A DNA stretch of 64,000 bases, taken from contig OZ038383.1 in NCBI GenBank assembly GCA_964036045.1, forward strand, positions 41,562,354 through 41,626,353, given 5' to 3'. This stretch comes from Eutreptiella sp. 'Long Island Sound 2002' (Eukaryota > Euglenozoa > Euglenophyceae > Eutreptiales > Eutreptiaceae). The notes under the pieces were generated by a model that made no database searches, was not told the origin of the DNA, and was given only the letters and a program-made list of their open reading frames with translations. Positions 10,282 through 53,935 of the stretch are shown piece after piece. The translations under genes and the position numbers were made by a program. Every line of letters starts with the position of its first letter. Within the stretch, counting starts at the first letter, position 1.

Positions 10282-10286
10282 TTCTG

Positions 10287-10842: not shown

Positions 10843-10899
10843 TGAAAACTCTAATCTCTCTCGTGTATCCGCAGCCAATCAGATAAATTCACCACCAAA

Positions 10900-29119: not shown

Positions 29120-29139
29120 ATGCGCGAGGCCTCGCGCAA
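29120..29139. repeat. Palindrome site, left arm, second ParB-like intron
   Basis: The halves are ATGCGCGAGG and CCTCGCGCAA, one base from perfect. It is inside intron 29103-29174 and is the partner of 50478-50497. Confidence 0.85.
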
Positions 29140-29556: not shown

Positions 29557-29576
29557 ATGCACGAGGGCTCGCGCAA
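29557..29576. repeat. Palindrome site, left arm, first ParB-like intron
   Basis: The halves are ATGCACGAGG and GCTCGCGCAA. It is inside intron 29536-29608 and is the partner of 50041-50060. Confidence 0.8.
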
Positions 29577-30099: not shown

Positions 30100-30119
30100 T
30101 TGCACGAGGCCTCGCGCAA
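30100..30119. repeat. Palindrome site, left arm, intergenic distal
   Basis: The halves are TTGCACGAGG and CCTCGCGCAA. It lies between the transposase-like stop and the ParB-like start and is the partner of 49491-49510. Confidence 0.85.
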
Positions 30120-30153: not shown

Positions 30154-30173
30154 TTGCGCGAGGCCTCGCGCAT
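30154..30173. repeat. Palindrome site, left arm, at the transposase-like stop
   Basis: The halves are TTGCGCGAGG and CCTCGCGCAT. It abuts the transposase-like stop codon and is the partner of 49436-49455. Confidence 0.85.
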
Positions 30174-31940: not shown

Positions 31941-32422
31941 TTGTAACGGCAGCAGTGACAGCACTCAATTTATACATCAATGTGATCAGAATTTCAATGA
32001 TTCTCAGATGTACATTAGTGCAGTAGATTTTCCGCTTGTTTTCATGTTTTCCGTTCGCCGCCAGATGTCGCCTGTGAACGCGCGTCGAGTCGCATTTGTC
32101 TTTCGTGATTTCCCAATCGGATTTATTTAAATTATTTCGAATGATTTCACGTTGTGTCATTATGTGCGATGGATGCACCTTGAGATTCTATGTCTGCTCC
32201 ATTTTTGTAGACCGGGTTTTCTGACTATTCGTATTCCACCATGGAGTTCAATGGACTTACAAGTGCTTCGCATATGTCGCTCCCCGAGGCTGGATATGGG
32301 TCTGAAGAGGGTCAGTTGGGTTCGGAGATATCAGGGGCAGTGTTGGGCGTTACGACCCCTGGGGCATCAAGGTCACAGGCTTCGCAATTACAAGAAAGAT
32401 CCGCCACTATGCAGCGGTTACA
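31941..32422 (+). repeat. 5' LTR of Ty3 element 2
   Basis: This 482-bp repeat with TG...CA ends matches 41736-42132 plus 42677-42759. It contains the gag start codon at 32241-32243 in a strong context (CCACCATGG). Confidence 0.9.
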
Positions 32423-35414: not shown

Positions 35415-36125
35415 GGAAGCCAACTTGACCCAATTCCCAACACTGGGGTTGAGTGGCAGGAAACAAAGCCCATCAGGGTAGTTGGGGCGGTGGATGGACG
35501 CTGCTGGGATCGGCTGGGGCGCTCCTCCGGACTCCTTTACCCTGCCTGGGTCCTCAGCGCTGTCCGGCGGGGCAAGCAGCGCCAGTTTGTCTGCTGGATC
35601 CAGGTCAGGACGACAGATGGTAAGGTTAAACTTGCCAAATGTCTGATTGACAATGGTTCAGAGGTCAATCTGGTGAGGAAAGGCTTTCTGCAGAAGGACG
35701 AGGCGAAGATGTCCTCGACACCTGTCCAGCTGGAGGGAGTCAGCGGACATCGCCTTGACGGTGGCGACAGAGAGGCAGAATTGGCAGTCAGATTGGTGAA
35801 ACAATCTGTGTGGAGCGTGGAAGAGAAGGTCACCGAGGAGTGGTTTCCTGGAAAATTCTATGAAGCCAGCATAAAGTATGATTTATTCTTGGGTCAACCA
35901 TGGCTTCACGCACACCATGTGTCGCCCATGGGACACAGGACATGCTTCCTCCAGGATCCGTCGACCAGCGACCCGTCCGACTTGTATTATCTGCACCGGT
36001 ATACCAAGAGTATCCACCAATTCAAGGAGCGAAATAAGCTGCATATTCAGCAAGATGGGCAGGAATGGACAGGGAATCAAGAAAAATTCGACGAGGGAAA
36101 AGTATTCATTGAACTGCAAGAAGTG
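35415..36125 (+). pseudogene. Protease of Ty3 element 2
   Basis: It is in the same frame as gag after the TAG at 35412. The active-site loop reads CLIDNGSEVNLVRKGF (about 35640-35685), keeping Asp and Gly but with Asn in place of Ser/Thr. The usual end motif is YDLFLGQPWL (about 35878-35905). Element 4 has the same DNGSEV, so the Asn is a lineage trait and not damage. A frameshift near 36125 separates it from the next domain. Confidence 0.8.
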
Positions 36126-36999
36126 GAAGTCAGTTTGCTATCGTGTGGTCGACAAATGGCGGGACATTCTGGTGGATTATTTCGAAAGGAACCACAATTT
36201 CTGTCCGCAAGTTGATGCTTTTGCAAACAAAAAGAATAAAAGATTTCCGAAGTTCTACGACGATGCCTGGAGTGAGGACTGGTCTGAACCTCTATGGATC
36301 AATCCGCCCTTCGACGTTTTTCCTCGTGTGGTGCAGGAGCTAAAGCAATCGGGCGCAAAGGCGATTTTCATTGTCCCCAACTGGCCAAAACAATTTTGGT
36401 TCAAGGACATTATGGACATTTCAATCGACATTGTCCACCTACCTCACAAGGGAGTGAAGCTGTATTGCGAAGACAATGGCAAGCCTTTGCCACAGCGTTC
36501 GTGGAGCACGTTGGCGTGCTTAGTTTACGGTAATCTGGGAGATTTTTGGCAAGATGACAGTGAAATGGGAACAGAAGAGGTCATCTCATATTCCTCAAGA
36601 ATCGACGAATTTGAGGTGGATGAAGACGATCGAGAGCGGAATCCCGACGTAACGTCGCGGAAGGAGGGAAGGACAATTGGCGTCCCTCAAGAGAACGCCT
36701 CCATCCATTCCAAATCGTCCCCATCAGACAAGAATCAAGCCAAGACTGTCAAGATTTCAAGCAAGAATGACGACAAATTTCCAAGATTTTCACCTGAAAT
36801 GACAGGAATGCAGCTGAATTCGTCCGACCATCCCTTCAAGACATTCGTGGACCCCCTTAATTGGTGGGATCCCACGGAGGAGCGAGCTCAGGTGAGCTTC
36901 ATCCGCCAACAATGCCACGAAGAAGTTTGGAATGAAGTTGCTGAGAATATGAGACCACGACCAACAATTCCCATCCTTCGACATAATGTCGGTGATTAA
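36126..36999 (+). pseudogene. Methyltransferase-like domain of Ty3 element 2 pol
   Basis: In the frame 35878-36999 the sequence runs YRVVDKWRDILVDYFE, VDAFANKKNKRFPKFYDD, LWINPPFDVFPRVV (NPPF at 36301-36312), AIFIVPNWPKQFWFKDI and VHLPHKGVKLYCED. This is the layout of Dam-like N6-adenine methyltransferase remnants known from DIRS elements. It lies between protease and RT, which is not the textbook Ty3 order. NPPF is intact here, so catalysis is conceivable, though no AdoMet-binding FxGxG motif is evident. After it comes a charged linker with no motif. Confidence 0.7.
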
Positions 37000-37897
37000 A
37001 TGTGGGAATCAGGTCGACGGAGACAAGATGTCTGCAAGAAGGGACGCAGTGTTCGAAGATTATAAAGATGATGTGCTGAGTGAAAAGTTGTGGAAAAACC
37101 CCCCAATCCGATGTGAAAATGGGGAAGCCAAGGTTGAGATAATCCAAGGCTCAAAGCTGCACAAACAACGTCCATTCTACCTGCACGGCACCAAAGGAGA
37201 TGCCCTGCGAAAGATTATTGAGCGCAATCTCTATGAGTTCGGTTTGTACGAGGGCTGCATGAGTTCTGAGTGGTGTTCAGCACCATTTACTGTGTCAAAA
37301 ACCCCACCTGTTGACCAATCCAGCATAGATGCTTGGCGTCTAGTGGTGGATTACAGAGCCCTGAATGCCGCCACGGTACCTGACGCGCATCCCCTTCCTT
37401 TAATCGAGAGAGGGGTTCGCCGCGAGAGCCAAAGGTAAGCTCTTTACTGTGTTGGATTTGCCCATGGCTTTCACCAAATGCCACTTCGAAAGGAGGATAG
37501 GCATTTGACGGCAATGTGCACGCCCTTTGGCACTGTCCAGTGGACTGTACTGCCGAGGGGTCTGAAGAATGCGCCGTCGATGTTCCAGAAGATGATGGAG
37601 ACTATTTTCTTTCAGAAGCACAAGTCTCTGAATTTACAAGAATTCTGCAGCATCTACATTGACGACCTTCTGATTGCCACGCCGTTGGGAAAAAACTTTG
37701 ATGAGTGCCTGAAGTTGCACGAAGAACAAGTTCGCAAAGTTCTCGAAGTCCTCCGACAAGAGAAGCTCGTGTGTGGACCCAAGAAGGGCAAAATGTTCCT
37801 TCCAGAGCGTGGAATTTTGTGGCTCTGTCTTGGAAGATGGGACAAGAAGACCGGCCCCAGGGAAAATGGCTGCCCTGCAGCTATGGGAAAGGCCTAA
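36986..37897 (+). pseudogene. Reverse transcriptase of Ty3 element 2 (frameshifted)
   Basis: The fingers are in 36986-37438 (LYEGCMSSEWCSAPFTVSK, WRLVVDYRALNAATVPDAHP). The frame breaks near 37435 and resumes at 37478-37897 with HQMPLRKEDRHLTAMCTPFG, LPRGLKNAPSMFQKMMET and catalytic YIDD (near 37658). A second shift near 37800 leads into the thumb in another frame. The motifs are otherwise complete. Confidence 0.85.
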
Positions 37898-38657
37898 AAC
37901 CATCACGCAGCTTCGTGCCTTTTTAGGCTGCTGCAATTATTACCACGAGTTCCTTCCTCTCTACGCCAAGTTCTCTGGTCCATTGACAGAGTTACTCAAG
38001 GTTGGCAAAATAGAAGGAAAGAAGGGATCTCAAGTCAAGCTCAGGTGGACGCCAGAATGTGAAGAGGCCTTTACTGGTCTCAAGGAAGCACTGGCGAATG
38101 TGGTTACATTAAAGACTCCGTGGTTGGATGGAAGACCTTTTTATATTCGTACAGACGCCAGTCGTTACGCCATTGGAGCTACGATCGAGCAAGTCGATGA
38201 CGAAGGTCACCATCATCCCCTGGCTTTCTGGTCTCGCAAGCTTACAACAAGACAGCAAAATTGGAGTCCAAGGGATCAAGAAGCCTACGCAATCCTTTAT
38301 GCCTTACGGCGTTATGAAGGTTGGATCTTGGGCCATCGCGTTGAGGTACTGACTGACCACAAGTCACTGGAGAGCTGGAGGACAGAACATGTGGATACCC
38401 CTGGTGGACCAGCTGGGAGGAGAGGCCGTTGGCATGAAACTCTCAGCAGATTTGATCTCCATGTGACTTACATTCCAGGGCGCTACAATAAAGTGGCGGA
38501 CGCCCTGAGTCGCTGGGCCTACCCAGCCTCAGAGGCTTACTCTGAAGTGAGTTTTCATGGGACAGCGACGGATAAAGCCGAAGTGATCGAGTTTGATAAG
38601 GAGGAACAAGCACTGATCAAGAAACATTGTCTCCAATGTTCGATGAAAATCGGATGA
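37773..38657 (+). CDS. RT thumb and RNase H of Ty3 element 2
   Basis: This is an intact 294-codon frame. The thumb reads KTITQLRAFLGCCNYYHEF. RNase H reads YIRTDASRYAIGATIEQ, SPRDQEAYAILYALRRYEGW, VEVLTDHKSLESW and PGRYNKVADALSRWAYP, with the acidic residues in place. The end overlaps the integrase frame. Confidence 0.88.
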   Translation: MDPRRAKCSFQSVEFCGSVLEDGTRRPAPGKMAALQLWERPKTITQLRAFLGCCNYYHEFLPLYAKFSGPLTELLKVGKIEGKKGSQVKLRWTPECEEAFTGLKEALANVVTLKTPWLDGRPFYIRTDASRYAIGATIEQVDDEGHHHPLAFWSRKLTTRQQNWSPRDQEAYAILYALRRYEGWILGHRVEVLTDHKSLESWRTEHVDTPGGPAGRRGRWHETLSRFDLHVTYIPGRYNKVADALSRWAYPASEAYSEVSFHGTATDKAEVIEFDKEEQALIKKHCLQCSMKIG

Positions 38658-40386
38658 GGGTGGAATTGGTCAGATGCAAGGAGATTACCAAGGCAGATCA
38701 GACTGCAGGAGTTAACTCTGACTCTGAGTCGGCGCTGCCACTCCTTAAAGTGTTTCCAGTGACAAGATCCAAGGCGAAATCCACGCTCCCTCCACAACAA
38801 AAGGACGAGGAAACTTCCTTCCTCTATGTGGATTGGACGAGGATGTACAAGGAGGACAGGTTCTTTGGGTCTGTATACCAGAAGTTGAAAGGGGACAAGC
38901 CTTGCGACTCTGAAGAGACGTCTGATTTCAAAATCCAAGGCGACAAGTTATTTTGGCAAGGACGGATTTGTGTTCCTGATTGTCTGATTGACCAATATGA
39001 CAAACATTGGCATCAGAATGAGACAGCCCACACACATTCTCGTGTTCTGGAGCAGGAGCTACGACACAGGGTGTACACACGGGACCTCAAGAGTGCCTGT
39101 GAGCGAGTTGCCAAAGGATGCAAGCAATGTCAGGCGACCATCCCCAAGAATCAAAAGGCAGAAGGATTACTGAAGGGATTGCCAATTCCTCAGAGGTTGT
39201 TCAACAAGGTGACGGGGATGTCCTCGAGTTGGGACAAATCTAAGAGGAATGTCTCTACACGAGGAAGCCAATCGATGGGGTTTTGTTAATTCGAGACCGC
39301 CACAGTGGCTACATCCAGGTCCTCCCTTGCAACACAAAGCATCTCACCTCTGAAATGGCTGCCAAGTGGACTGCAAGTCAGTGGATGAGTAACTGGGATG
39401 TTCCCAGTGAAATTCTGACGGACAGTGGGAAGGAGTTCATTAGGACTTGGTGGGAGAACATGTGTGCTCTATTGGGAGTTCATCATCTTCGTGCCCGAGT
39501 CTACGACCATCGAGCCCTCCCTGCTGAACGCGCTGGAAGAATTCTTATCAACATTCTGAGAAAATTCCTGGCGACTGAAAAAGACTACAATTGGTTGGAG
39601 ACAATTTACTGTGTCTTGAGGAGATACCATCGGACCAAGAATTACACTGGATTAAGTCCGAATGAGCTTGTTTTTGGTCGAGAGAAGATGGGTCCAGGAC
39701 CAGTGATGTATCATCCAAGGCAGTGCTACGACGCCTCACAATGGTTTGGGAGGATCAAGGATTTAGAGTCCAAGTGCATCCAAGCCAAAGTGGAGAGTCA
39801 AGCAGATTGGTTGGAATTCAAAAATCAGTCGAGAACACAAGGAAAACCCTTCGAGAAAGGCCAGCAAGTTTGGCTTCGTAAGTCAGACGAGACCCTGAAG
39901 GACGACAACGAATTGTTACCTTTGTGGGAAGGCCCATTCCAAGTCAGTGGTCAACTAAGTGAGACTACATTCAACCTTGAAGTTGAACCGGGCAGACATC
40001 CAGAAGTACATCGGGATCGTTTGAAGGCCGAAGTACCCTGCCCCAAGGGAAGGTTCAAGCCTCTCTATTGGACTTCGAAGTACCTGAGCGACAGGAAGAT
40101 GGTCACCAGCAGTTTCGAGTTGGAGAAGATCCTTGATTACAAGAAAAATGCTCGAAACAACTGGTACTTTCTGTGCAGATGGAAACTATTCGGTCCAGAA
40201 GAATACAAATGGGAGCCAGCTTCAAGCTTTATCCATGGGTATACGGACACTTTCATCAAGTTCCTGAAGAAGCACCCTGAGATTGACCGTGAGCTCTCGC
40301 TGATCAAAGATTGTGTCACCAAGGAAGACTTACAAGCACAAGAAGAAGCTCCAATTGTGGCAGAATCCATTCGAGACAAGATCTGA
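38627..40386 (+). pseudogene. Integrase and chromodomain of Ty3 element 2
   Basis: Frame 38627-39289 holds the HHCC zinc site (HWHQNETAHTHS, CERVAKGCKQCQ). After a shift near 39285, frame 39283-40386 holds the core: IRDRHSGYIQV, ILTDSGKEFIRTW, and E in LPAERAGR. The GPFQVSG...FNLEVEPGRHPEVHRDRLK region follows. The C-terminal chromodomain reads FELEKILDYKKN, YFLCRWKLFG and YKWEPASSF. Chromodomains steer integration to marked chromatin. Only the one shift separates it from an intact state. Confidence 0.88.
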
Positions 40387-41735
40387 TGAGAATTTGAGTC
40401 GCCGAAACTTTCGAAAAGGTTTACGGTCTACATATACCCTTGGCATTGGGACAAAACAGTTCTGGCGCATCGTCTATGTGGTTCGATGAACAGATGATGG
40501 GACATTCTGGGATCATCCTGGTCATCATGTCCATCATTCCCATCATGGTCATCATGTGAATCATGTGCTTCATTGTAGATGATTTCCATCGGAAGTTCCG
40601 AAAGGCCTTTATCCTCAACCACGACGACACTCTCGTGTTTTGCTGTCGACTGGACCCCTCTACTCGCCTTGGGAAGGACTCGTTCGAGTTCGTGCTCATT
40701 TGAGAGATTCTGGCACATGACTGGGTCTGATGCATTTCATGTGTCTGACGAATCTGCTGAGAATGTCATTTCAATCAGCTCTTACATTGAGACTGTTGGT
40801 TTGTTTTTCAATAGACCGCTGTCAAAGGGCTTATATAGACCAAGTGACAACGATGGTGTTCTTACTTGTGTCGACTCGCTGTTCATCTGTGGATTGTGTT
40901 GGAATCCCCCTCAGAATCAGCTCAGTTTTGGCACATTCCTGGTACCAAGCATTGGATGCTTATACATTCTGGGACTATAATGAGTTAATTACCCCTTCTG
41001 GCTCATACTGGATTAAACATGAAGCCCTGGAGACGATACTGACAGTGTGATGTACACTCACTGGGTTTTCTTGGCTATCATTACTCTTGCATGATTGGAT
41101 TTCCATCATGGGATTCATCATCATCATGAGGATTTGACCTGGATTGGCTATGAATGAGAACTGGATTTCCGTTCAGCACAGCACACAGAGTCTATCGACA
41201 ATGAATTGGACCTATATTGGCTTGCTGCAGACTTCGCCGCCCTCAATCCGTGTGCGATTCACTGTTTTTGGTCTCAATTCAGTCACATTTTGTACCATAA
41301 TCTGGCATCTGGTCTCATGACTGCAAATGACACCGACCAGTTTCACATATCTTGGACTCCATGAAGGGATACCCTATTTTTTGGACGCTCGACGACATGG
41401 CGACACTCGTTTTCTGTTTTCTGACAGTGGGATGTCAGATCCTGATTTCATCATGGATCATGGATCTTGATCATGCATGTACATTCTTCACTCAGACTTT
41501 CAATTTTCGGATTTTTGAGCTTGAACGAAGCTATTTCTGTGTGCCCTAAGGTACTTATGCGTTTCATTCAAGTCGATGGCCATCGCGAAGCACAGATCTC
41601 AGCACAATTTTGCTCATATCAGCTCAATTTCTCACATTTTGTCATAGATTGGTCGGTTTTTGGTCACTTTAGCCGTTTCTTTCACTTCACTTGACCCAGC
41701 CTGACATACTGACATATGTTTTCAGAGGGGGAGTG
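40387..41735 (+). other. 3' untranslated region and polypurine tract of Ty3 element 2
   Basis: No gene is supported. Positions 40490-40570 are rich in ATCATG/CATCAT repeats. The tract AGAGGGGGAG ends at 41735, directly before the 3' LTR, and would prime plus-strand synthesis. Confidence 0.75.
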
Positions 41736-42759
41736 TAACGGCAGCATTGACAGCACTCAATTTATACATCAATGTGATCAGAATTTCAATGATTCTCAGA
41801 TGTACATTAGTGCAGTAGGTTTTCCGCTTGTTTTCATGTTTTCCGTTCGCCGCCAGATGTCGCCTGTGAGCGCGTGTCGAGTCGCATTTGTCTTTCGTGA
41901 TTTCCCAATCGGATTTATTTAAATTATTTCGAATGACTTCACGTTGTGTCATTATGTGCGATGGATGCACCTTGAGATTCTATGTCTGCTTCATTTTTGT
42001 AGACCGGGTTTTCTGACTATTCATATTCCACCATGGAGTTCAATGGACTTACAAGTGCTTCGCATATGTCGCTCCCCGAGGCTGGATATGGGTCTGAAGA
42101 GGGTCAGTTGGGTTCGGAGATATCAGGGGCAGGTTTTCCATTGATGTTACGTCTGATGAACAATGACAGCAAAGTGCCAGTTAGTTTCAACAATGGTTCA
42201 AGAATTTGTTGATTTTTGTCTAGGAAACATGTTCACATTGGACACCTGGTTGGAAAAATCCTATGCGCACGTGCTATTTGAGGACCACCATGAGCAAATC
42301 ATCATTTGGTGATGAGAATCTGAGCCAATTTTGGACTAGTAAATATGTGAAAATGTGAAATGTTGCATTTTTGTTTCCTGGATAGTCATCCTTTGTGTAT
42401 GGTATATGCCGGAGCTATTTTTTGAACGATTTCTGTGGTGAAAACAACAATGAAAGGAGAAATGATGGGCAATGCACCATTAAAGCACCATTAAAAATAG
42501 AACAAAGTTTCTTTTGGGTAGATTTTAGAGGCATTCAGATAGATTGTGTGGATTTGGGAAAAGTTGGTCGTTAAATTACTAGGTGCAATGGACTTACAAG
42601 TGCTTCGCATATGTCGCTCCCCGAGGCTGGATATTGGTCAGGAGAGGGTCAGTTGGGTTCGGAGATATCAGGGGCAGTGTCGGGCGTTAGAACCCCTGGG
42701 GCATCAAGGCTACAGGCTTCGCAATTACAAGAAAGATCCGCCACTATGCAGCGGTTACA
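41736..42759 (+). repeat. 3' LTR of Ty3 element 2, chimeric with a 546-bp excess
   Basis: 41736-42132 matches the 5' LTR. Then 42133-42586 has no counterpart. From 42587 a second, more diverged copy of the LTR's last 170 bases (to 42759) follows, so about 90 bp are present twice. The target duplication lies after 42759, so the whole stretch belongs to the element. Confidence 0.8.
42133..42586. other. Unmatched 454-bp segment inside the 3' LTR
   Basis: AT-rich, no protein frame, no terminal repeats and no match elsewhere in the window. It may come from a longer relative of the LTR. Confidence 0.5.
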
Positions 42760-42950: not shown

Positions 42951-43536
42951 TATTGCTGTGGAAAATAATTGCGTAACTGTATCTGCGTAAAAACCGCTGT
43001 TTGAAAAACTGTCTCGCTTTGAAACATCAACCTGTCACATAGTATTCGCGCGACCAATTGTTCAATGATTCGCTTGTCGCATGCACCATTTTCGGTTTAA
43101 TGTAACTGTCTGGTGGTCCCACATTTGACTAGTTAATCCTGATTGCGGTACCCAGTTGCGGCGCGCTTCTATCGCTGCTGGGCACTGAAGTCAGCGGTGA
43201 CCACAGTATGAAAAGTAGAGATGCCGGCGGGACCTGCATGGGCGCCCACACAGGTCCCGCCGGCATCTCCAGCTTTCATACTGTGGTCACCGCTGACTTC
43301 ACTGCCCAACAGCGATGGTAGCGCGCCGCAACTGGCTACCGCAATCAGGATTAACTAGTCAAATGTGGGATCACCAGACAGTTACAGGTACCCAAAAATG
43401 GTGCATGGGACAAGCGAATCACAGAATAATTGGTCGCGCGAAAACTGTGTGACAGGTTGATGTTTCAAATCAAGAAAGTTTTTCAAACAGCGATTTTTAC
43501 GTAGATACAGTTACGCAATTATTTTTCACAGCAACA
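42951..43536. repeat. Palindrome core of the inverted dimer: two leaders back to back
   Basis: Two 293-bp leaders mirror each other about 43243/43244. The centre is TGGGCGCCCA, itself a perfect palindrome, flanked by a 2-bp mismatch and then uninterrupted pairing (GATGCCGGCGGGACCTG with its complement). By eye about 91% of positions pair over 160 bases per side. No protein frame is shared. Divergent promoters for the two outward genes should lie here, but I cannot point to a TATA box. Confidence 0.88.
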
Positions 43537-44968
43537 ATGCCCCTGCGAAAAGAGGTGGACCTTGAGAAGACAGTGGCCGCAGCATCTGGAGTTTCCGCCA
43601 TGTCTGCTCAGAGGAACCGCCGTACCACAGGGCAGAAGAACTCTGGGAAGGGCTGAAACAGGGGGACGAGGGCGCGCGATTGTTGTTTGTGTTTTTTCTG
43701 CGTCTGCCCAAAAATGAACGGATGCGTTGCAGCGTTGAAAAGGCGATTGCGGCAGAAGGCAAGAGATGGGTTGGTGTTTTGATAGAGGAGGCCTGGCACT
43801 TTTTTTGCTGATACGCCACCACGCAGTTCAATACCAGGGAAAACCAAAGTCAGTTGCTGCGATAGAGGGAAGTAGGGCGCAGCGTGGCATTTTAACAAGG
43901 TCAGGTCTGGCGCGATACAGCGCACCTTCGCTGAAGGAGAAGGCCGCAGTCAGGTTACAGACTACATCGGACAAAATACACCTGCAGTGGGTTGTGTTAT
44001 GGGTGGACAACTGGTACAACAAACAGTTTACCACAAATCCTGGAAAGAACGACAAAAGCCTGAACGCAACAGCGTTGGCTGTGTTGCTACTGCGGGATGC
44101 ACCGCGCTACTGGCATGGTCATCCTAGCCTGGAAGAGCTTGAACGGTGTGTTCCTGTTGTTGCACGCATGCTGGGGAACACCGAGGGAACATTTGCACGT
44201 ATCCTGCGTGATCTAGGATTTGCAAGCACGCGGCCTGTTGTTCGAAACATTAGGGCGCTGCTTGACATTATTCGCCCTGTACCTGCCAAGAAACCACATT
44301 GGCGACCCCTTTGTCTAAGCAAAGAAAAGGTGAGCGGCAACGTCTCGCTGCTTAATCGATTGCAACTCACTAGGGACTTGGCGCAGCACACTCGACCAGC
44401 TGTGCCTGTTTTATGTGATGAGAACATCCATTACCGCATTTGTAAGATGATGTATGGTGAAAAAACAACGGGGTTTCTTGCGGTCACACCCTATATTGTA
44501 TGGTTTCTGGCACGAGTACAAGTTTTGCGTTACACAAACATTTCGCTCATTTTGGCCAATCATGACTTTCTTCCGTAAAGGTTTGTTGCGCAGCGGTGAC
44601 ACAGTCCCCTGCTCTCCCAAGCTGATCACAATGGAGATAACTGTTGGCGCACTGCTGTTGGGTATGGGCCCCCACATACGCCGTCTCACCAGAAAATGTC
44701 ATTCCCTTGGGCTGGCACGTTCTGTAAATCGGCGAGGCCGCCTCCGTTACGCTGTGTGTAAGGCCATGCAGGTTCTGTTAACACAATACTGTCCTATGTT
44801 ACCATACCTAGGACACCTCGTTAGACAGTGCAATTGGGCCGGGGAGACGGCCAACATGGGTGTTTTTGCTTCTGAGGGATTGCAGATTGTTATGTGTCTG
44901 TTAGACCGTTTGAACATGGGAAACACACTTTGAAAATACGAACGCACTGTTGCAACTGCGCTATTGTG
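43537..44968 (+). pseudogene. Transposase-like gene, right-arm copy, 5' part
   Basis: The ATG is at 43537. An early shift (near 43600) ends the first frame at KNSGKG. The main frame resumes at 43766 with the acidic motif LWVDNWYNKQF (near 44005), VARMLGNTEGTFARIL and the LCDENIHYRICKMMYG motif (near 44415). A deletion of about 15-20 bp near 44475, compared with the left arm, shifts the frame. The second part (44454-44933) ends at TGA after LDRLNMGN. The DIRS-like element begins at 44969, and the gene continues at 48912. Confidence 0.65.
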
Positions 44969-45586
44969 TCGGATTTACCCGAATAGGTGAGGAGGAAAGA
45001 AGAGATGGCGAAGCAATAGCACTACACAAGACACATATATGGGCCAACTCCTTAAAACCGGTTTGTTTTCTCTGTTTTCTGCTCCTTTGGTGCCCTTTGC
45101 TACCTTTCATTGAAACGGGCACCCTCAAAATATACACAAAAATGGTATTATACATGAAAAATGAATTTTTTGACCTCAAATACCCCCTCCATGGGGTTTG
45201 AACCCACACTCTGCCAACCTTAGAGTTGTGTTTTTCCTCTAAGCTACGACCTGTCGTCGACGATCTCAGAGAAAACCGTAGTATAATAAAAAATTTGGAA
45301 AATCAGTACTCCTTACATGCTCCAACCACTATTAACCTCCCATGCTCTTAAAACCGTGGCAACCGACGACCCAAGTGTCAACTGCTTTTCACGGTGAGCG
45401 AAGAACTTAAGGGAGGGACAGGGTGGGCATATATGTGTCTTGTGTAGTGCTATTGCTTCGCCATCTCTTCTTTCCTCCTCACCTATTCGGGTAAGTCCGA
45501 GCTGGCTCAGCTAGCACTACACAATCCCCATATATGGGCAACAGAACGGAAGACTGAGCTCCCGTGAACTGAACCCTTTACAAGAA
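44969..45586 (-). repeat. Complex terminal repeats of the DIRS-like element
   Basis: 44973-45054 and 45427-45498 form an inverted repeat of about 75 bp. It includes TTACCCGAATAGGTGAGGAG and CGAAGCAATAGCACTACACA. A further direct copy of TAGCACTACACAA...ATATATGGGC lies at 45509-45540. DIRS elements carry inverted and internal complementary repeats for circular replication intermediates, so this is probably the 3' terminal apparatus. Confidence 0.75.
45190..45258 (-). tRNA. tRNA-like sequence or pseudo-tRNA with intact A and B boxes
   Basis: On the minus strand TAGCTTAGAGG (A-box form) is followed about 30 bases later by GGTTCAAACCC (B-box form). CAAC and GTTG can pair as an anticodon stem. 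The acceptor stem does not pair well and the anticodon loop is 6 bases, so it is probably a decayed tRNA or the head of a SINE, not a working tRNA. Confidence 0.4.
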
Positions 45587-46590
45587 TTAATTAATCGCCA
45601 GGCGCGAAGCGCGCGCCGCTTCTCCAGTCGCCAGATCAGGAGGGACCAGAACTTGCGCGATGCGTAACAGAGCTCTGGTCCTGTCGTAAACCTTTCTGAA
45701 TGTATCGTAACAGGACCAATCACCCAATGCTGCTACCACATGCGGATCCACGCCAAGATAGATTAGTGCAGTTGCTGCTGCTCCTCGTGTAGAATGCGCG
45801 GAAAACGAATCCGTCTCCAGTTCCCCCAATTCCAGTAGGTGTTTCCTTAACCAGCAAGTAGTGAGACCGTTGATGGTATCAGATGATAAAGGCTTCCGTG
45901 GCTTTCGTAGGGACACAAAAATCTCAGAACCCTCGTAATCACCAGTAGCCTCCAAATAACGCGCTAAGCAGCGCTGCGGATCAATTGACGGTGGCGTAAC
46001 ATTGTGAATAGGATAACGTGCATAGTATCTCCTCCCTTTTCGCTTAGCAGAAATGAACCAAGGCTGAGCAGCGCGTTGGATATCCCTACATGATCGCGCC
46101 AGATCAACGCCTCGGAACAAGGCAAAGAATCTCAAGGACAAAATGGCTTGCAAGCGCAGCTGAGCTTCCGTCTCCACAGGTTGCTGATGCATGACTTGTA
46201 TAAGACGCCGTACATCATAGAAACGATGATAATGAGGAACACTGACGAACCAGTCACGTTTCAAGTTGCGTAGCATACCCTCGAAACGTAGTTGCGAAAA
46301 GCACGGGAATAAACACACTGCTGAATACGCCATACGCCCAGCACTTAAAGAATGCGTGCGTGAAAACTTTAAAAGTTGCACCGCCACCGTCATCAGTGGG
46401 ATTTGACCAAAGCGCTCCACCTTTAACAGTGGAGCAAGCGCCGCGTCTTGTAACAAGAACGTACCAAACATGTGCCACGCAGAATTGTAACGTCTCAAGG
46501 TGTCCTTCCCGATTTCATTGATGATAAGTGTCGCCTCTTCGTTGGTAGCTCCTCGCAATTGATAGTATTCACGCAAACATACGCCAAGGT
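45587..46590 (-). CDS. Tyrosine recombinase of the DIRS-like element
   Basis: The frame stays open upstream to 47785, but that part is the wrong frame over RT/RNase H. Recognisable recombinase starts near 46580. DTLRRYNSAWHMFGTFLL fits a SAM-like N-terminal domain. The catalytic domain has FFALFRGVDLARSC (first Arg), FSAHSTRGAAATALI (HxxR) and ALGDWSCYDTFRKVYDR (W and nucleophile Tyr). The box order matches DIRS recombinases, which insert the circular cDNA. The frame ends at 45587 without internal stops, so this domain is intact. The start codon is unclear. Confidence 0.88.
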
Positions 46591-47508
46591 CAACACGAAA
46601 CGTGGTTGTGTCTCCGTGCCGTCCGGCATTTGCAAACGGAACTCCGACGTGTTCACTGCGAACCTCACGTGTTTCATCAATAGGTTCCACCAAACCTCGC
46701 GCGGCCTGTACGGCAGAGCCATGAGAACCTTCACCCCTGGTGACTCCAACACTTTGTTGACCAACTGAGGTATGTGCTTGAACGGCGGGAAGACCCACCC
46801 CGGTGAAAGTAAAGTTAGATTCTGGGAGAAGACATCGATGGCGTAAGCCCCCGGCTGAGGACACGGACTGACGAACTTGCTGCACACCGCATTGGAACTC
46901 CTTGACATCCAATCGATTTCCGGCTGAATCCAACTTTTGAACTCCTCCAGGATCCAAGTCAACACGTCCGACGGGAAGGTAGCCTCCGACGGTGTCCAAC
47001 GAAGCCGAGACCAAATGTCCGCCGGATTCACCGAGGTGTGCACGTAAAACGGTTGAATCTCGATGCGATTGGCTTGTGTAAAATTCCACAGTTGGAGAAT
47101 CAATGCGTTGAACCGCGGCTTGCGACCTCCCCACTTGCGGAGATACCAGTAAAGGACCATTGAGTCGGTGAAAAATCGCAGCGTGGTGTCCCTCAGCGCA
47201 TACGCTTGAATAGTCAGTAGGGCTCCCCTGAACTCTTTGACGTTTATGTGTTCCTCTCGATTCAGGAACCAACCGAACGCTGCTTGGGCATTCCCTTGAA
47301 GGACTCCGCCCCACGCCAGATCTGACGCGTCCGAGTACATGTCCCTGACGTGACCCATGGAGACTACGAAGGTGCGTCCCTTCCACTGGTGTAACTCGTC
47401 CGCCAGATCCATCAACTGACGTGACACGCGCTCCGGGAGCGCCACGTCTGCCTCCCAGCCAGCCTGGACTGCCACCGCCACGTGCACCGCCAGGGCGTCG
47501 CTGAGGAG
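46495..47508 (-). CDS. RNase H and methyltransferase-like region of the DIRS-like element
   Basis: It is in the same frame as the upstream RT, separated by one TGA at 47509-47511. RNase H residues are RDMYSDASDLAWGGVLQG, NVKEFRGALLTIQAYAL, FFTDSMVLYWYL and NPADIWSRL. It is followed by YAIDVFSQNLTLLSPGWVF then FPPFKHIPQLVNKVL, the NPPF-type position of the DIRS methyltransferase-like domain, with Phe in place of Asn. The recombinase frame overlaps its last 100 bases. Confidence 0.82.
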   Translation of the reverse strand, partial: LLSDALAVHVAVAVQAGWEADVALPERVSRQLMDLADELHQWKGRTFVVSMGHVRDMYSDASDLAWGGVLQGNAQAAFGWFLNREEHINVKEFRGALLTIQAYALRDTTLRFFTDSMVLYWYLRKWGGRKPRFNALILQLWNFTQANRIEIQPFYVHTSVNPADIWSRLRWTPSEATFPSDVLTWILEEFKSWIQPEIDWMSRSSNAVCSKFVSPCPQPGAYAIDVFSQNLTLLSPGWVFPPFKHIPQLVNKVLESPGVKVLMALPYRPREVWWNLLMKHVRFAVNTSEFRLQMPDGTETQPRFVLTLAYVCVNTINCEELPTKRRHLSSMKSGRTP

Positions 47509-48528
47509 TCAGATATGGGGCATGGCGAACAACAAGGAACGGATTCTTCCAAGAACGGAGGCGCATCGCCTCACTGATGGTGTGTGACTGTGTGCCAGTC
47601 TGTTCACGTCCCGAAAAATTGCTTGTAGGCGCTTTGGAGGTACCGCGACGAATCCTTCCCTGAAGTTTAGCATAAAACCAAGCATTATAATTTCTTGAGA
47701 CGGCTCCAAACATGATTTTGGGACATTGACCAATATACCCAACCGATGCAAAAGTTGTACCAAAAAACGTGTGTGTTCCAGACATTCACGGTAAGTATTG
47801 CCAATGATGAGCCAATCGTCCAAGTAGACCCAAACGAGTGCTCCGCGTTCGCGCACGGCATTTGAAATCGGTTGCATGAGGCGTTGCCATTCTCGTGGTG
47901 CAACGTTTAATCCAAACGGCAAAACGCACCACCTGTAAAATTCACCGTCGACGTGGACCCCCAAATAAGGTCGATCCCGCGGATGGATACCCATGTGAAA
48001 ATAAGCACTTTTCAAGTCAATTTTGCAAGCATACTGACCGGGTCTCAACAACGGTAAAATGCCCCACAGAGTGACCAAACGAAAATAGGTGGTCTGTACA
48101 AACTGGTTCACGTTCTTCAAATTGGTGATAGGTCGACGGCCTCCCTCAGGATGTGCCTCGTCTGACGCTTTGTCCACTGCGAACATACTTGCACAACACT
48201 TAATGTCTTTTCGCTCGACGCGTTCCATGCAACCCTGTTGCACTGCATCCAACACGTGTTTTACCAATTCAGGGTCGGTTACCTCTGCGTGGGAAGAACG
48301 AGGACGGAAGTCGTCGGTTGGCCGATCCGGATCAAAACCGTCAACCCAATCAAGCTGCAGCCCATTGCGAATCACTGACGCCGCGTATGTGTCCTTCAAC
48401 GCTTCCCATTCATGCAATTGTGCACGACAGCGCAAATAGAGTGGCATGTGGGGATGGATCGGCGGTGGCACGCACACGGCTGGCGCCAAAAAATCCTCTA
48501 CAGTCAAGCTACTGCTGTGGTCGTTCAT
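47509..48528 (-). CDS. Reverse transcriptase of the DIRS-like element
   Basis: A 339-codon frame from MNDHSSSLTVEDF. The RT motifs are RPITNLKNVNQFV, CKIDLKSAYFHMGIHP, RWCVLPFGLNVAPREWQRLM and catalytic VWVYLDDWLIIG (YLDD). The SAYFH and LPFGL forms are typical of DIRS-type RT, not Ty3. It ends at a TGA that may be a single mutation, because RNase H continues in frame. Confidence 0.9.
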   Translation of the reverse strand: MNDHSSSLTVEDFLAPAVCVPPPIHPHMPLYLRCRAQLHEWEALKDTYAASVIRNGLQLDWVDGFDPDRPTDDFRPRSSHAEVTDPELVKHVLDAVQQGCMERVERKDIKCCASMFAVDKASDEAHPEGGRRPITNLKNVNQFVQTTYFRLVTLWGILPLLRPGQYACKIDLKSAYFHMGIHPRDRPYLGVHVDGEFYRWCVLPFGLNVAPREWQRLMQPISNAVRERGALVWVYLDDWLIIGNTYRECLEHTRFLVQLLHRLGILVNVPKSCLEPSQEIIMLGFMLNFREGFVAVPPKRLQAIFRDVNRLAHSHTPSVRRCASVLGRIRSLLFAMPHI

Positions 48529-48911
48529 CTAACTTGTCGTTACGTGGCACAAATCTTTGGGTGAAACCCTTACCTTTGCCTTTGCCTCCTTTGCCAGATC
48601 TCCGTGGATCAAAACGACCTCGTGTTGAAAACGAACGGAAAGAACTACGATGCGAGTAAGGGGAGAAATGCGTGCCTCTCAGGTCTTTTTGTAATTTGTT
48701 GCGCGACTGAAGTAGTGACATGTCATCCTTCGAGAGTAACTCTGGTGCAATCGCAGGTTGTTCAAACCGTTTATCTACTGCCACTCGCCGGGAGCTTTGG
48801 ATGCTGTAGTCCAACGCACAAACATCCAGCGGACGCGGAGAAGCGTCGTTGGGAACAACAGGTAAAAGACGCCATGCGAGTCCTGGGAGTAGTCTTAGCA
48901 CGCGAAGAGGA
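48529..48911 (-). pseudogene. Gag remnant of the DIRS-like element
   Basis: The frame enters from the insertion junction without its own start. The tail is Arg/Ser then Gly/Lys-rich (SSFRSFSTRGRFDPRRSGK, GGKGKGKGF), fitting an RNA-binding gag C-terminus. It overlaps the RT start by about 20 bases in another frame. Confidence 0.6.
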
Positions 48912-49436
48912 CACACAGCCATGCCTGTACAGGCTTTTGCCGAGGAGTTTTGTGAAAGTCTGCTTTCCAGCCTTGTGACAAAGAAGGGCCAACACAGAGG
49001 TGCAGTGACTATTGAAGACGTTGACGATCTGTATCATCTCATCACTATCCGCAAAGAAGGTCACAGGGTAAACGTCTGCAAAATCCCCAATTCCTTTGTC
49101 GATTCCGTGCAGCAGCGGTTAACTGCTTACTTGAACGCAGAGCGTGTATATGTGCCTTGGGTTAGGTGGTGTGCGGAGCCTACTTGTGCAATCCAGGCGC
49201 ATTGGCCGCGCAGGGGTGTACCTAGCTTTCCACTGTCTCTTCTAATTCCAAAGGGTTCTAACCACTACAAACAAGTCCTTGTGTCTGTCTTGTTGGTGCT
49301 AACGCAGCAGGGGCTGCTTAAGGCTGGTTTTAAGCGAAAACTGTCCGAGCTGATCCCCGAACGCAGTGTGTTGGAGAAACAGAGAGAGGCCGACACGCTG
49401 GGAAACGTTCGAAGAAGATTGGAGAACATGCAGTGA
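48912..49436 (+). pseudogene. Transposase-like gene, right-arm copy, 3' part
   Basis: It resumes the gene after the DIRS-like insertion: MPVQAFAEEFCESLLSSLVT to NVRRRLENMQ and a TGA ending at 49436. It is collinear with the left-arm C-terminus, with roughly nine of ten residues identical. The segment is uninterrupted. The stop codon abuts the first palindrome. Confidence 0.75.
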
Positions 49437-49455
49437 TGTGCGAGGCCTCGCGCAA
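49436..49455. repeat. Palindrome site, right arm, at the transposase-like stop
   Basis: The halves are ATGTGCGAGG and CCTCGCGCAA. Confidence 0.85.
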
Positions 49456-49490
49456 ACAGCATGAAACAACAGGTTAGTACACCCCCTCTC

Positions 49491-49510
49491 TTGCGCGAGG
49501 CCTCGCGCAA
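49491..49510. repeat. Palindrome site, right arm, intergenic: perfect 20-mer
   Basis: TTGCGCGAGGCCTCGCGCAA is a perfect 20-bp palindrome. It lies 162 bp before the ParB-like start. Confidence 0.95.
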
Positions 49511-50008
49511 GGTTGACAGTCAAAAACAGTGACGTACCCCTTCAGTTTTGCATTCTCAACCATACTGTACTGGTATTCGTTCAAAACGCCTCACATATGC
49601 ATTATCGACGACGATTTTAACCCTTTTGGATGTTTTGTTTCCTGCAATACAGGCTTTCTCCTTATCGCAGAATGGCAAGCCCCACCAAAAAAACAGCCGA
49701 GGAACAAGAAGATACCGACTATGACCCTCGGACCTCAGGATAGGAGGCTGAAACACCAAAGAAGGGGCGGAAGAAGAAGGAAACACCAGATCCTGGCCTA
49801 ACCTTGGGTACTGACATCGAGCACCACCTGAAGCCGGATGGGAGGCAGGTGGAGGTTGAGCTGGACAACATGAGAATCGACCAAAACAAACAGAAAACAG
49901 AGGGGCAGATCAGACGGAAGGATACAAAGTTACTGCAGAAGCGTATTGAGTCACTCGAAGCAGCACCGCCAACAGGCCCATTACACGTCGTTCTGTGGGA
50001 AGATAATA

Positions 50009-50081
50009 GTATGTTGCCAACCGACTGTTCGCTCTTCTTGTTGCACGAGCCCTCGCGCATAGACGTGTCTCATATTTGCAG
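50009..50081 (+). other. Intron 1 of the ParB-like gene, right arm (73 nt)
   Basis: It begins GTATGTTGCC and ends ATTTGCAG. The palindrome is near its middle. Splicing joins codons GAT AAT A|AT GGC. Confidence 0.85.
50041..50060. repeat. Palindrome site, right arm, intron 1
   Basis: The halves are TTGCACGAGC and CCTCGCGCAT. Confidence 0.85.
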
Positions 50082-50443
50082 ATGGCGATTATTGGTGTGT
50101 ATCTGGACAGCACAGGGTGGAAGCGATTGCGAAGATTCGGCAGAAGCGACGCACAGCATGTCTGGATCTGCAGCAGTGGCATACCACATGCATCGCCGAT
50201 ATTCTGAAGCCTACGACACCGTGGGCCTTCCGTGCAAAGCTGGCGGGACAAGCACAGGGAAGCGCACAAGACGTTGAGCCAATACCGCTGTATGAGGCAG
50301 CAGATAACCTCATTCGATGTGTTGAAGATCAGCCGTGGCGAGGCCTGGCTGACACGTACAGCAATCTCAAGATCGCCATTGTAGATGCTGTGCAGATGAG
50401 TGCTCTGGTTCCAACCGCTGAACTGAAGCAGCCTGGTCAATTC

Positions 50444-50514
50444 GTATGTTCATTAATTGTTGTTTCGATGCTCTTCGTTGCGCGAGTCCTCGCGCATACC
50501 GTTGTCACTTTCAG
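50444..50514 (+). other. Intron 2 of the ParB-like gene, right arm (71 nt)
   Basis: It begins GTATGTTC and ends CACTTTCAG. It falls between codons (GGT CAA TTC | GAC AAA ACG). Confidence 0.88.
50478..50497. repeat. Palindrome site, right arm, intron 2
   Basis: The halves are TTGCGCGAGT and CCTCGCGCAT. Confidence 0.85.
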
Positions 50515-50812
50515 GACAAAACGTACAAATTGTGGAACGATTTTATGATGTTTGCCTACTATGCTGGTCTGGAAGCTGTGAAAGGTCTGCAGAAGTTCCA
50601 CGACAAAGGGGAGAAAGTCAGGAAGAACGCGCTGAAGAAACTGGACGGGATCCTCTTGCCAGAGTTCTACAAGAAAGTGGCGGAAGTGATGCAGGAAGAA
50701 AAAACAACCCTTAAATCCTGGCGGAATTCGTTTGACGACATCATCCTTGACCAGTGGGTCTCAATGCATCTGGACCACCCACACAACGGCCAGTACGTTC
50801 GACCTGAGAAAG

Positions 50813-50886
50813 GTGTGTACCATCGACGAGACGTGCGTTCCGTTTCTGCATTGGTGCGCTGCACCTTCTCCATTTCTGTTCTTTAG
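50813..50886 (+). other. Intron 3 of the ParB-like gene, right arm (74 nt)
   Basis: It begins GTGTGTACC and ends GTTCTTTAG. This is the only intron without the common palindrome; it carries a small GGTGC-GCT-GCACC hairpin instead. The left-arm copy of this junction hosts the 2.0-kb insert. Confidence 0.82.
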
Positions 50887-51587
50887 CCAAGGACATGCGC
50901 ACCGGAAAAGAGGTTGCTGCACTTGGAAGGCCTGCCCTGAAGGTGAGTCTTGGTACATGGGGCTATTGGCGTGAGTCTGAAGGCAAAAGTCGCGGTCCAT
51001 GGCCGGCATGGAAATCCATGATTCGCGCACCACTGTGGCAGGTGGCAGAGAAAGGCAAACCCGCCTCCCTGAAAATCCTCAACATCCAGAAATTCCTGGG
51101 TGAAGAGCCTACCAAGAGCCGTGTGGTCCCCGCAGCTGCTGGCGTTACTGGTGACTTCAAGACAGTGGAACAGCAGGATCCATTACTGGCAAGTCAAACT
51201 ATCACAATTAAGGCGACCGGAATTGCAGCGTTGGCCCACGATCCCCCGAGGCGGTTTATTGAGATTGACAAGAACCTGTTTGTCATCAACGGCGACATAT
51301 TTGAACATCTTGCTCCTGAGATGATGTGCCCAGCCTGGCTGTATGAAGAGATGGCGCGTGCCGATACCCTTATCTGCGGCTCTCAAACTGTTCTTGACAA
51401 CATGTTCGACGTGCTGGAAACGGAAACAGAGAAACGTCTCAACGATGATTTCAACGCGCCGCGCATGGCTAACATGTTGCGTGTTCACATCTTCAGTTGG
51501 CCACTCAAACCAAAGCCTGCAGGGGATCCTACAACGTTCGACGTCTGCTGGTTGCTGATTTCGTCACCGGATAGCTGGTCGAGAAAG

Positions 51588-51654
51588 GTATAATTCCCTC
51601 GTTACGTCCGCTCTTTGCGGAAGGCCTCGCGCAATAACTTCTCCCTCATTGCAG
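51588..51654 (+). other. Intron 4 of the ParB-like gene, right arm (67 nt)
   Basis: It begins GTATAATTCC and ends CATTGCAG, between codons (AGA AAG | ATT TCG). Confidence 0.85.
51615..51634. repeat. Palindrome site, right arm, intron 4
   Basis: The halves are TTGCGGAAGG and CCTCGCGCAA. The left half is decayed. Confidence 0.8.
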
Positions 51655-52488
51655 ATTTCGAATTATTCGAAATTTGGACCTACTCAGGTAGAGGAGATGG
51701 ATCCTGTTGAATTTGCCGGTCACCTTCCGATAACGACGGTTATGTGGTATTTCGACACTCACCTCTTGTACCTGAAGCAGGATAAGAGCTTTAAGCCTGT
51801 GTTTGTGTTCATTGATCATCAGCCGGATCCGCTGTGCAAAATTGCGTCCGTCGAGCCGGATTCTCGCATGTACCTTCTTGGTGTTACCACCAACAATCTC
51901 TCCGATTGGGTCAGCAGAGTGCAGACTCAGTTGAACCACGTCTTGATACAAGGGTCGAAACTGGACGCGTCTGGTGATTGGGACCAGCAGGCCAACTGGG
52001 CAAACCGTGGTATTCCCCTTTGGGTTCGCGATGACAAGTTTGGTTCTGAGGCGTTGTCGCTGAAGGAGGAAGAGACTGTTGAGAAAGGTCAAGCTGCAGA
52101 AGCACTGGCCCCTGCAAAGCGGAAGTCTACTGGTGGGGAACCAGCCCCCAAGAAGGAGAAGACTGCCTCCAAGCCTCAGGCAGCGAAGTCGGTTACCGGT
52201 GCAGAATCCGACGAGAGCGATGGGGAAGAAGAGGAGGAGAGCGAGGAAGAAGAGGAGGAGGAGCCGACGGTCTCCCAGGGCAGGACAGCGAAGAAAGTGG
52301 CAGCGAAGCTGAGGTCCCAGGAAACCGGGGCCCGAGCTCCATTTGAGGAGCCGGCCCGTCAGTCCCAACCAAGAAGGAAGCCCGCAAAGCCACCGCCTAA
52401 GGGTAAGATGTCCGTTGCTAAGGCACTGGGTCCTAAGATGCAAACTGTTCCGAAGAAACAAAAATTTCTTCATTTCTTCTGATACATT

Positions 52489-52508
52489 ATGAGCGAGGGC
52501 TCGCGCTA
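52489..52508. repeat. Palindrome site, right arm, after ParB-like stop
   Basis: The halves are ATGAGCGAGG and GCTCGCGCTA. It begins six bases after the stop codon. Confidence 0.75.
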
Positions 52509-52596
52509 TGCATTCCTCTTCGACGACCTTTATGCTGTCACCTTGTGCGGCACATTCTTCTATTTGATGCATTTTCTTCCGCTGTTGTGTTGGTGT

Positions 52597-52616
52597 TTGC
52601 GCGAGGCCTCGCGCAA
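52597..52616. repeat. Palindrome site, right arm, outermost: perfect 20-mer
   Basis: A second perfect TTGCGCGAGGCCTCGCGCAA, about 340 bp from the element end. Confidence 0.95.
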
Positions 52617-52958
52617 AGAAGGAGTGCCAAAAAATGCTTCTTGTGGTGCTGCGTGCAACATGGTTTTCAAAAACTGGTTTTCCAAAAGATTGAAAGCTCA
52701 TGGGTGTTTTTTTTGCAAAGCATAAGTGGTAGAGGAAACAAAAAGTCGTGGTTTTCCCAAAAAAGAACTTCATTTTTGGAGAAATAAATCATTTTCCCGG
52801 GCAGTCGGTTTTCTTGAAAATAAATGAAAATAGACCAGTTATTTGCTTTTCACAGGATTTTTGGTTCTTGTGTTTTAGGTCCCCCCCAAAAGAACTTTTT
52901 TTTCGCAGTGCCGCGGAGAGGCAGTTTTGGGGGCATTTTGACCATGCAACTTGAGCCG

Positions 52959-53935
52959 CCTAAGCCTGTCTGGGCTGGGGCAATCTGTCTGGGCTGTCTG
53001 GGCTGGGTCGATCTGCCTGGACTGTCCGGGCTCATCCGTCAGTTTTTCTTATTATCATGGATCATGGCTGTGACTGTGGCAGGGGCTGTGGTTGGATGAA
53101 GGGAGCCATATTTTTTTGTCGAAGGCTCTCAGCCCCCCCCCCCCCCCGTGCTGTCAGCCCCCCCTCGCCCCTGTGCAGTCAGCCCCCCCCCCCCCCCCTG
53201 CATATACATGTTCTCCTTTTGCAGATATGGGATATGAAAGCACGCTACGCTGAACTTTAGAGAAGTGGCATGCAGGATGAGGTCACAGGTCATGGGTTGA
53301 GGTGCAGGATGACAGGGAATCACATTGCAGTACAGACTGTCAAATTTTTTCCCTTCTATTGACAGTGGATGGCAGCGTTCGGATGCAGGATGACAGGGAA
53401 TTGCGTTGGAGTACAGACTGTCGATTTTTTTCTTCTGTTGACGGTGGATTGCAGCGTTCGGAGACAGGACGACAGAGAATTGCATTGGAGTACAGCCTGT
53501 CCATTTGTTGTCCTTCTGTTGACAGTGGATCGCAGCAGCGCTGTAACTGTCAGCCCAGGATGTGAAGCCAGGCCTGGGCTGCCATATATGTCATGGCTGG
53601 AGTTCTGACACCCCCCTCCTCCTCCCAAATAATAGAGCAGCATTGCCCGTTTCCTGTTTCGTGTATCAGGCTGTTCCAGTAGGGTTTGGTAGCACAATTG
53701 TTTGTAGCACAACTTTTCGTGCCTTTTTTTCCCTGCCATTTGTGTATATTGCTTCTGTTTGCATTTTTTTTCCCTCTTCGCCATCTCAGGTGTTCCAGTC
53801 AGAATTTAGAAGTGTAATCCTGGGCTTCTTAAGGACCGCTTTTTGCAGATGGCACTCCTTGATTATCATTCTGCTGTCAGCCAGCGCTCTAGGCTCATGT
53901 CTCCTTCGCCTGGTGCTTGGCTTGTGCGGGGAGTG
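52959..53935 (+). other. 3' untranslated region of Ty3 element 3
   Basis: No gene. It holds short CTGTCTGGGCTG-type repeats (52970-53035), two long C runs (about 53132-53148 and 53184-53199) and an 80-bp tandem array. CGGGGAG just before the 3' LTR could be a polypurine tract. Confidence 0.6.
53300..53545. repeat. Three tandem copies of about 80 bp
   Basis: CAGGATGACAGGGAAT-type starts recur at about 53305, 53386 and 53465. Each is followed by GAGTACAGACTGTC, a T run and TTGACAGTGGAT. Confidence 0.8.

Follow-up and report, generated by a model that had tools for sequence, protein, structure and literature searches.

Clustered 20-bp palindromes in Eutreptiella as probable cis-acting sites of a two-gene DNA transposon

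A stretch of 64,000 nucleotides from the euglenophyte Eutreptiella sp. 'Long Island Sound 2002' (contig OZ038383.1, positions 41,562,354 to 41,626,353; hereafter the window) carries two facing copies of a mobile element, and each copy contains seven near-identical palindromes of 20 bp. What are these palindromes, and which protein could recognize them? In a sequence-only reading of the window they were taken for parS-like sites, bound by a ParB-like protein encoded by the element itself. Our analysis indicates that they are probably cis-acting binding sites of a family of DNA transposons, which have terminal inverted repeats (TIR) and two genes, termed here gene A and the second (ParB-like) gene.

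The palindromes and their transposon

We scanned the whole 64-kb window with the 20-mer consensus TTGCGCGAGGCCTCGCGCAA. All fourteen palindromes of the sequence-only reading were recovered, with 0–4 mismatches. In the right arm (plus strand), they are located at 49436..49455 (R1, 2 mismatches), 49491..49510 (R2, 0), 50041..50060 (R3, 3), 50478..50497 (R4, 2), 51615..51634 (R5, 2), 52489..52508 (R6, 4) and 52597..52616 (R7, 0); R2 and R7, both in the right arm, are the two perfect 20-mers that had been reported. In the left arm (minus strand), they are located at 30154..30173 (L1, the counterpart of R1, 1 mismatch), 30100..30119 (L2, 1), 29557..29576 (L3, 3), 29120..29139 (L4, 1), 24898..24917 (L5, 4), 24020..24039 (L6, 4) and 23912..23931 (L7, 2). 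Beyond the fourteen, no position of the 64 kb has fewer than six mismatches to TTGCGCGAGGCCTCGCGCAA. Compared to the 14 places observed with at most four mismatches, the mean was 0.05 in 100 order-2 Markov sequences of equal length. The sites do occupy the same relative places in both arms, as had been pointed out, but the left arm repeats the right one in reverse orientation (compared pieces are 83–92% identical); the matching positions are therefore inherited and give no independent evidence.

The sequence-only reading had proposed to count the 20-mer genome-wide. In the 2,280,300,865 bases and 2,205 contigs searched (the window is on contig 6), the palindrome was found at 13,886 places with at most two mismatches, against 1 for a control read backward. 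Twenty 10-kb stretches around exact sites gave two kinds of element, one autonomous-type and one nonautonomous, named N1. By its structure, the element with the palindromes is a 6.3-kb TIR DNA transposon with two genes. Both ends are present in the autonomous-type reference L056, which is about 6.3 kb in length; its tips, like those of the N1 copies, are CTTAGGCGGCTCAAGTTGCATGG at both ends. The TIR occurs 1,963 + 1,910 times genome-wide (control, 0 + 0). Target duplications of 5 bp were seen by eye in 7/7 two-ended copies examined, and none was seen around the fused pair of the window. Gene A has no recognizable transposase domain, so we infer transposition from the TIR and the target duplications.

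L056 contains ten sites, at 198, 426, 484, 2773, 2828, 3372, 3809, 4943, 5817 and 5925. The first three are close to the 5′ tip, the next two lie between the genes, another three fall in inferred introns of the second gene, and the last two are close to the 3′ tip. R1–R7 of the window correspond to sites 4–10. About 590 bp of the 5′ end, including three sites, is absent from both window copies, and the first three sites are therefore hidden in the window. The earlier statement that the palindromes occur only around and inside the ParB-like gene is thus right for the window and wrong for the element, whose fuller copies have three sites beyond gene A.

N1 is a 1.7-kb nonautonomous partner with the same tips; it carries four palindromes, at about 376, 482, 669 and 1485. 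Among the first 60 matches listed between N1 (L038) and the 6.3-kb element, the similarity inside N1 is confined to the tips and the palindromes. To learn where the sites reside, we sampled 29 loci, each selected for an exact site and all in the first 25 Mb of contig 1. All 29 belong to this transposon family, 12 being N1-type and 17 autonomous-type, whole or partial. Among their 117 sites (14 of them in the references L056 and L038, which are themselves in the sample), 116 lie inside homology to the L056 element or to the N1 of L038, and the single exception, in L040, lies where the first site of that copy would be expected. In this sample, the palindrome was not clearly seen in unrelated sequence, and it was present in other copies, as the sequence-only reading had expected of sites belonging to the element.

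To avoid bias from selecting on the site, an exact TIR match was used to retrieve 19 further tips; seven of them lacked an exact site in the earlier list, and the other twelve were consecutive, from 27.4 to 37.5 Mb. All 19 contain sites, at distances of 197–209, 347–386, 425–427 and 455–492 from the tip. The expectation that the sites track the ParB-like gene did not hold, as they are also present on the gene-less N1 and at the tips of the full element. Because of this distribution, repeats of a two-gene TIR transposon fit better than parS sites near a parB gene. What stands of the original idea is that recognition by a DNA-binding protein of the element itself is the best reading of the sequences; that the sites belong to the ParB-like gene does not stand, N1 having no such gene.

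The sites of the right copy avoid coding sequence. Introns were deduced from reading frames, splice-site motifs and conservation between the arms. With the arms aligned and the frames joined, the second gene of the right copy is modelled with five exons in consistent frames on the plus strand: exon 1 (49672..50008, with one in-frame stop in this copy), exon 2 (50082..50443, with a GQHRVEA motif), exon 3 (50515..50812), exon 4 (50887..51587) and exon 5 (51655..52482, including the stop codon). All seven sites are outside the inferred coding exons, although non-exon sequence makes up 20.6% of the interval (chance of 7/7, 1.6e-5). R1 overlaps the stop codon of gene A by one base, 49436, which is the first base of the palindrome and the last of the upstream open reading frame (ORF). 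Four of the seven are in inferred introns: R2 in an intron of the 5′ untranslated region, in the gap between gene A and the second gene, and R3, R4 and R5 in introns 2, 3 and 5, respectively. R6 is located 6 nt past the stop codon of the second gene, and R7 is subterminal at the 3′ end of the element.

Conservation and proposed function of the sites

Between the arms of the window, the sites differ at 11/140 bases and other noncoding sequence at 111/679 (Fisher P=0.009). Compared to L056, the diverged tip L071 has changes at 6/60 site bases and 216/545 of the rest (P=2e-6), and L072 at 4/59 and 221/546 (P=3e-8); these two belong to one subfamily, with flanks about 40% diverged from L056 and sites 7–10%. 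L069 and L070, which are probably inverted copies of each other and count as one at most, each show 2/60 against 78/548 (P=0.015). In L042, an internally deleted diverged copy, 5/120 site bases are changed against 591/2332 of the rest; leaving out its two exact, selected sites gives 5/80 (P=2e-5). For N1 the counts are 12/800 and 783/14,701 (alignment of 5 of 6 copies, L055 left out), which we do not use as evidence, these loci having been picked for an exact site. Besides the sites, sequence leading up to and including the element's natural palindrome (L071:500-640) is also conserved in the 40% diverged tip, and it may be a further cis element or a promoter.

Database copies of the second gene extend this comparison. 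Read-through pieces of the gene, from long ENA contigs, are found in ORF databases, where the exon 3 ORF matched 244 proteins and the exon 2 ORF 135 (E≤1; 120 listed in each case). The intron palindrome in such proteins was scored as 6–7 residues, best of three frames. Of the 120 proteins listed for the exon 2 ORF, 105 satisfied the filter that required read-through into intron 3; the palindrome of this intron is exact in 68 of them and has one change in 28, two in 8 and three in 1. It is the most conserved of 18 seven-residue windows (0.935; 104 ungapped rows). For intron 2, 36 listed proteins passed, with 16 exact palindromes, 13 with one change and 7 with two or more; five proteins missed by the filter were checked separately, and the palindrome is present in them with 0 or 1 change.

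For the pattern within the site, we collected 169 sites (63 distinct) from the window, L038–L057 and L060–L087; the limit was five mismatches, and none had more than four. At positions 2–19 each base is 91–100% conserved, whereas the outermost position on each side is occupied by A or T. Inner pairs 2–10 have 119 one-sided changed cells, one non-complementary double change and 0 compensatory changes (a cell is a count of sequences and not of events); within the window taken by itself, inner compensation is absent too. The lack of inner compensation, together with the sites near the tips and on N1, which has no genes, speaks for a symmetric protein that recognizes DNA rather than for an RNA hairpin. 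An apparent excess of changes in the left half of the site was also considered; it vanished with the 169 sites and was rejected.

Taken together, these comparisons suggest the following mechanism. A symmetric and probably dimeric DNA-binding protein, encoded by the autonomous element, would recognize W-TGCGCGAG-NN-CTCGCGCA-W close to each end of the element and within the majority of its noncoding gaps. It would help to join the ends for transposition, control the promoters of the element, or both, and it could act in trans on nonautonomous copies that retain the tips and the sites. We infer from the sequences the protein binding, the dimeric state and the role in end synapsis or regulation.

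Several observations weigh against this proposal. Different from a purely subterminal array, five of the ten sites lie at a long distance from the tips, at the gene boundary and in introns. For gene A, Pfam gives no match at E≤10 and PDB a single hit, a chance one (E=2.1). Some few database copies have lost or decayed sites; P0223 and P0137, for example, are without the intron-2 palindrome. In L076 and L079, which are 96% and 95% identical to L056, the changes at sites (2/60 and 1/60) do not differ significantly from those in the rest (22/548 and 29/548), these copies being too close to L056 for site conservation to be distinguishable. The outermost pair 1/20 has 30 complementary double changes beside 49 one-sided cells in the 169 sites. 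Finally, the sites of three introns lie at 17, 20 and 21 nt from the 3′ splice site, and such similar distances could reflect a role in RNA.

The arrangement recalls the Spm/En system. According to PMC2613891, the subterminal repeats that TNPA recognizes in Spm/En are cis-determinants; TNPA is needed together with TNPD, and both are able to work in trans. In a soybean relative, the same source reports, the repeats can form palindromes and the target duplication is 3 bp. Like the Spm/En (CACTA) elements, the transposon described here has repeats near both ends, common to autonomous and gene-less copies. Different from them, its TIR is CTTAGG and not CACTA, its target duplication is 5 bp rather than 2–3 bp, it shows no Pfam transposase domain, its second protein is marginally ParB-like, and its near-perfect 20-bp palindromes are also found between the genes and in introns. 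The TIR and the 5-bp duplication exclude membership in CACTA; the likeness to an Spm/En-type system would be one of workings, and the element is assigned here to no named superfamily.

Target duplications of 5 bp are also made by Transib and hAT5 elements, and the TIR of Transib starts with CAC. The element shares the duplication length with both; its TIR is unlike the Transib start. No superfamily-specific transposase domain of either kind was matched in gene A by Pfam at E≤10, where a strongly diverged one could be present. The 20-mer is in no paper of the literature searched, and the literature searches for ParB with a transposon in a dinoflagellate or protist, and for ParB-like proteins with transposable elements, gave no such description. 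As both proteins are without a Pfam family, the element may represent an undescribed transposon lineage. An odd palindrome cluster thus turns into a testable cis–trans system of a very abundant mobile element; it offers two candidate binders and a ready nonautonomous substrate, N1, and the natural diverged subfamilies already mark the constrained bases of the site.

Candidate binders and other explanations

Which of the two proteins would bind the sites? The most likely binder is the ParB-like second protein, an assignment that we make tentatively from the sequences. The alternative, less probable and yet a serious candidate, is the product of gene A, the presumed transposase. Gene A is 655–689 codons in length from stop to stop (L056 and L049), and it is stop-free in 22 of 65 scored matches, from 8,548 candidates.

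The ParB label of the second protein is weak and should be treated as a lead, not a finding. Residues 7–78 of the right copy match positions 34–99 of the ParB-like phage profile PHROG_1033 (E=1.1e-4), whereas the left-copy protein has no match to it; in nine database copies the profile scored E=0.13–0.24 in three and was not listed in six, and a hand-typed composite protein gave E=8e-4. A profile of unknown function, phrog_3951, scores similarly. The NCBIfam RepB model TIGR03454 matched the composite domain only, at E=0.006, far under its cut-off. The second protein has no ParB match in Pfam and no match in PDB; for a helix-turn-helix (HTH) after the N domain, it has no family match, and the structure model is poor. 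The AlphaFold confidence scores (predicted local distance difference test, pLDDT) of the read-through protein P0144 and of P0001 are 52.7 and 30.1, with no usable fold, and a fold search with the second-protein model gave no match at E≤0.001. No IMG/VR relative of P0001 was confirmed.

In the parS-like explanation, the ParB-like protein would be a clamp dependent on cytidine triphosphate (CTP); it would load at the palindromes, spread over the element and serve the partition, tethering or pairing of its DNA. We consider it unlikely. The likeness lies in the clustering of near-identical palindromes inside and beside a gene whose N domain marginally matches ParB (PHROG_1033 in the right copy, RepB TIGR03454 in the composite), in the GQHR.EA motif, which resembles the GERR.RA motif of ParB, and in the dispersal of the sites along the whole element rather than at its tips only. 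Different from ParB–parS, the system resides on a eukaryotic TIR transposon; the sequence of the sites is unlike the parS consensus, and the sites are also present on elements without the gene, N1 among them. The missing Pfam and PDB matches, the absence of PHROG_1033 from the left copy and six of nine database copies and the low-confidence fold also argue against it. In addition, no ParA was found in the element: gene A has no ParA-like domain by Pfam (ParA elsewhere in the genome was not sought). A search with the free-centre motif gave 32 bacterial and archaeal stretches of at most 8 kb each, none with two places, and one stretch in IMG/VR.

A combined scheme, in which a CTP clamp of the ParB type was recruited by the transposon, is loaded at the ten palindromes (those in introns included), pairs the two ends by sliding or bridging and also serves gene-less partners in trans, is speculative and in our view improbable; to our knowledge, end synapsis by such a clamp is known in no transposon. 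If the ParB link were true, DNA clamps of the partition type would be tied to eukaryotic transposition.

The palindromes could also act as RNA hairpins that aid or control splicing or RNA processing of the second gene, given their places in introns and beside stop codons. The seven window sites are noncoding but for one stop-codon base, four of them being intronic, and those of introns 2, 3 and 5 keep 17–21 nt to the 3′ splice site. Nevertheless, we regard this explanation as very unlikely. Intron 4 (50813..50886, plus strand) is the sole intron of the second gene without a palindrome; other sites are found some 200 bp away from the tip, and N1 carries sites while lacking the second gene; and the inner pairs of the 169 sites show no compensatory change. 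The covariation observed in the window alignment was reached by all 500 shuffles. When introns 2, 3, 4 and 5 of the right copy were folded, the palindrome was the minimum-energy hairpin in intron 3 only. Rfam at gathering scores and a tRNA scan of the window found nothing. Conservation beyond the surroundings, the confinement of the sampled sites to the transposon family, and the lack of inner compensation together support the reading of the palindromes as protein-binding sites.

That the palindromes are a selfish mini-element, a short insert that spread inside the transposon without function, deserves hardly any credence: the 20-mers are near-identical in unrelated flanks, but 0/117 sampled sites are clearly outside the transposon family, the tip positions are kept in the 40% diverged subfamily, the sites are conserved beyond their flanks, and no target duplications were seen by eye around the 20-mers.

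Anatomy of the window copies and neighbouring elements

The two window copies are fused head to head without a spacer, the centre being at 43243/43244. The fusion (43234..43253) falls on the natural 20-bp palindrome of the element, with CTGCATGGGC and GCCCATACAG on the two sides of the centre, and the inverted duplication looks like a fold-back at a short palindrome. In the right copy, the frame of gene A is broken; its 5′ part is at 43766..44968 and its 3′ part, with the stop codon, at 48912..49436 (both plus strand). Between them, a DIRS-like insertion occupies 44969..48911 on the minus strand, with matches to reverse transcriptase (PF00078) and tyrosine recombinase (PF00589). The frame of gene A is broken in the left copy too (30176..31741, minus strand). 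The left copy carries a Ty3-type long terminal repeat (LTR) insertion at 31942..42759 (plus strand), with polyprotein ORFs and bounds taken from the copy alignment; its LTR-like repeats, 31942-32344 and 41734-42135, are 98% identical. The 3′ TIR is at 52936..52964 (minus strand) in the right copy and, degraded, at 23566..23594 (plus strand) in the left copy.

Inverted arrangements of the element were observed elsewhere as well. L050:2532-7469 holds two inverted 3′ halves, whose 12-bp outer flanks are mutually reverse-complementary; judging from these flanks, it is another inverted duplication, with host flank included. In L069:1-660 and L070:1-660, two 5′ tips face each other, 8.4 kb apart, with equal difference counts from L056, and the pair is perhaps one more inverted duplication.

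The window has other features as well. A second type of palindrome, GTGCAA-N8-TTGCAC, is found at 55328, 59112 and 59288, the last being a perfect 20-mer. These sites surround a minus-strand ORF (57719-58612), and the cluster is perhaps another transposon with its own sites. The long open frame at 18-4469, with reverse transcriptase, RNase H, integrase and chromodomain matches, is by these domains a Ty3-type retrotransposon. In the genome as a whole, the Euglena spliced leader occurs 2,511 + 2,614 times with at most one mismatch (control, 0), which makes Euglena a probable source. A dinoflagellate origin was considered and dropped; the dinoflagellate spliced leader is absent from the window, a result that by itself says little. 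Finally, a direct repeat of 559 bp links 10285-10843 and 53934-54491, which are 43 kb apart and 93% identical.

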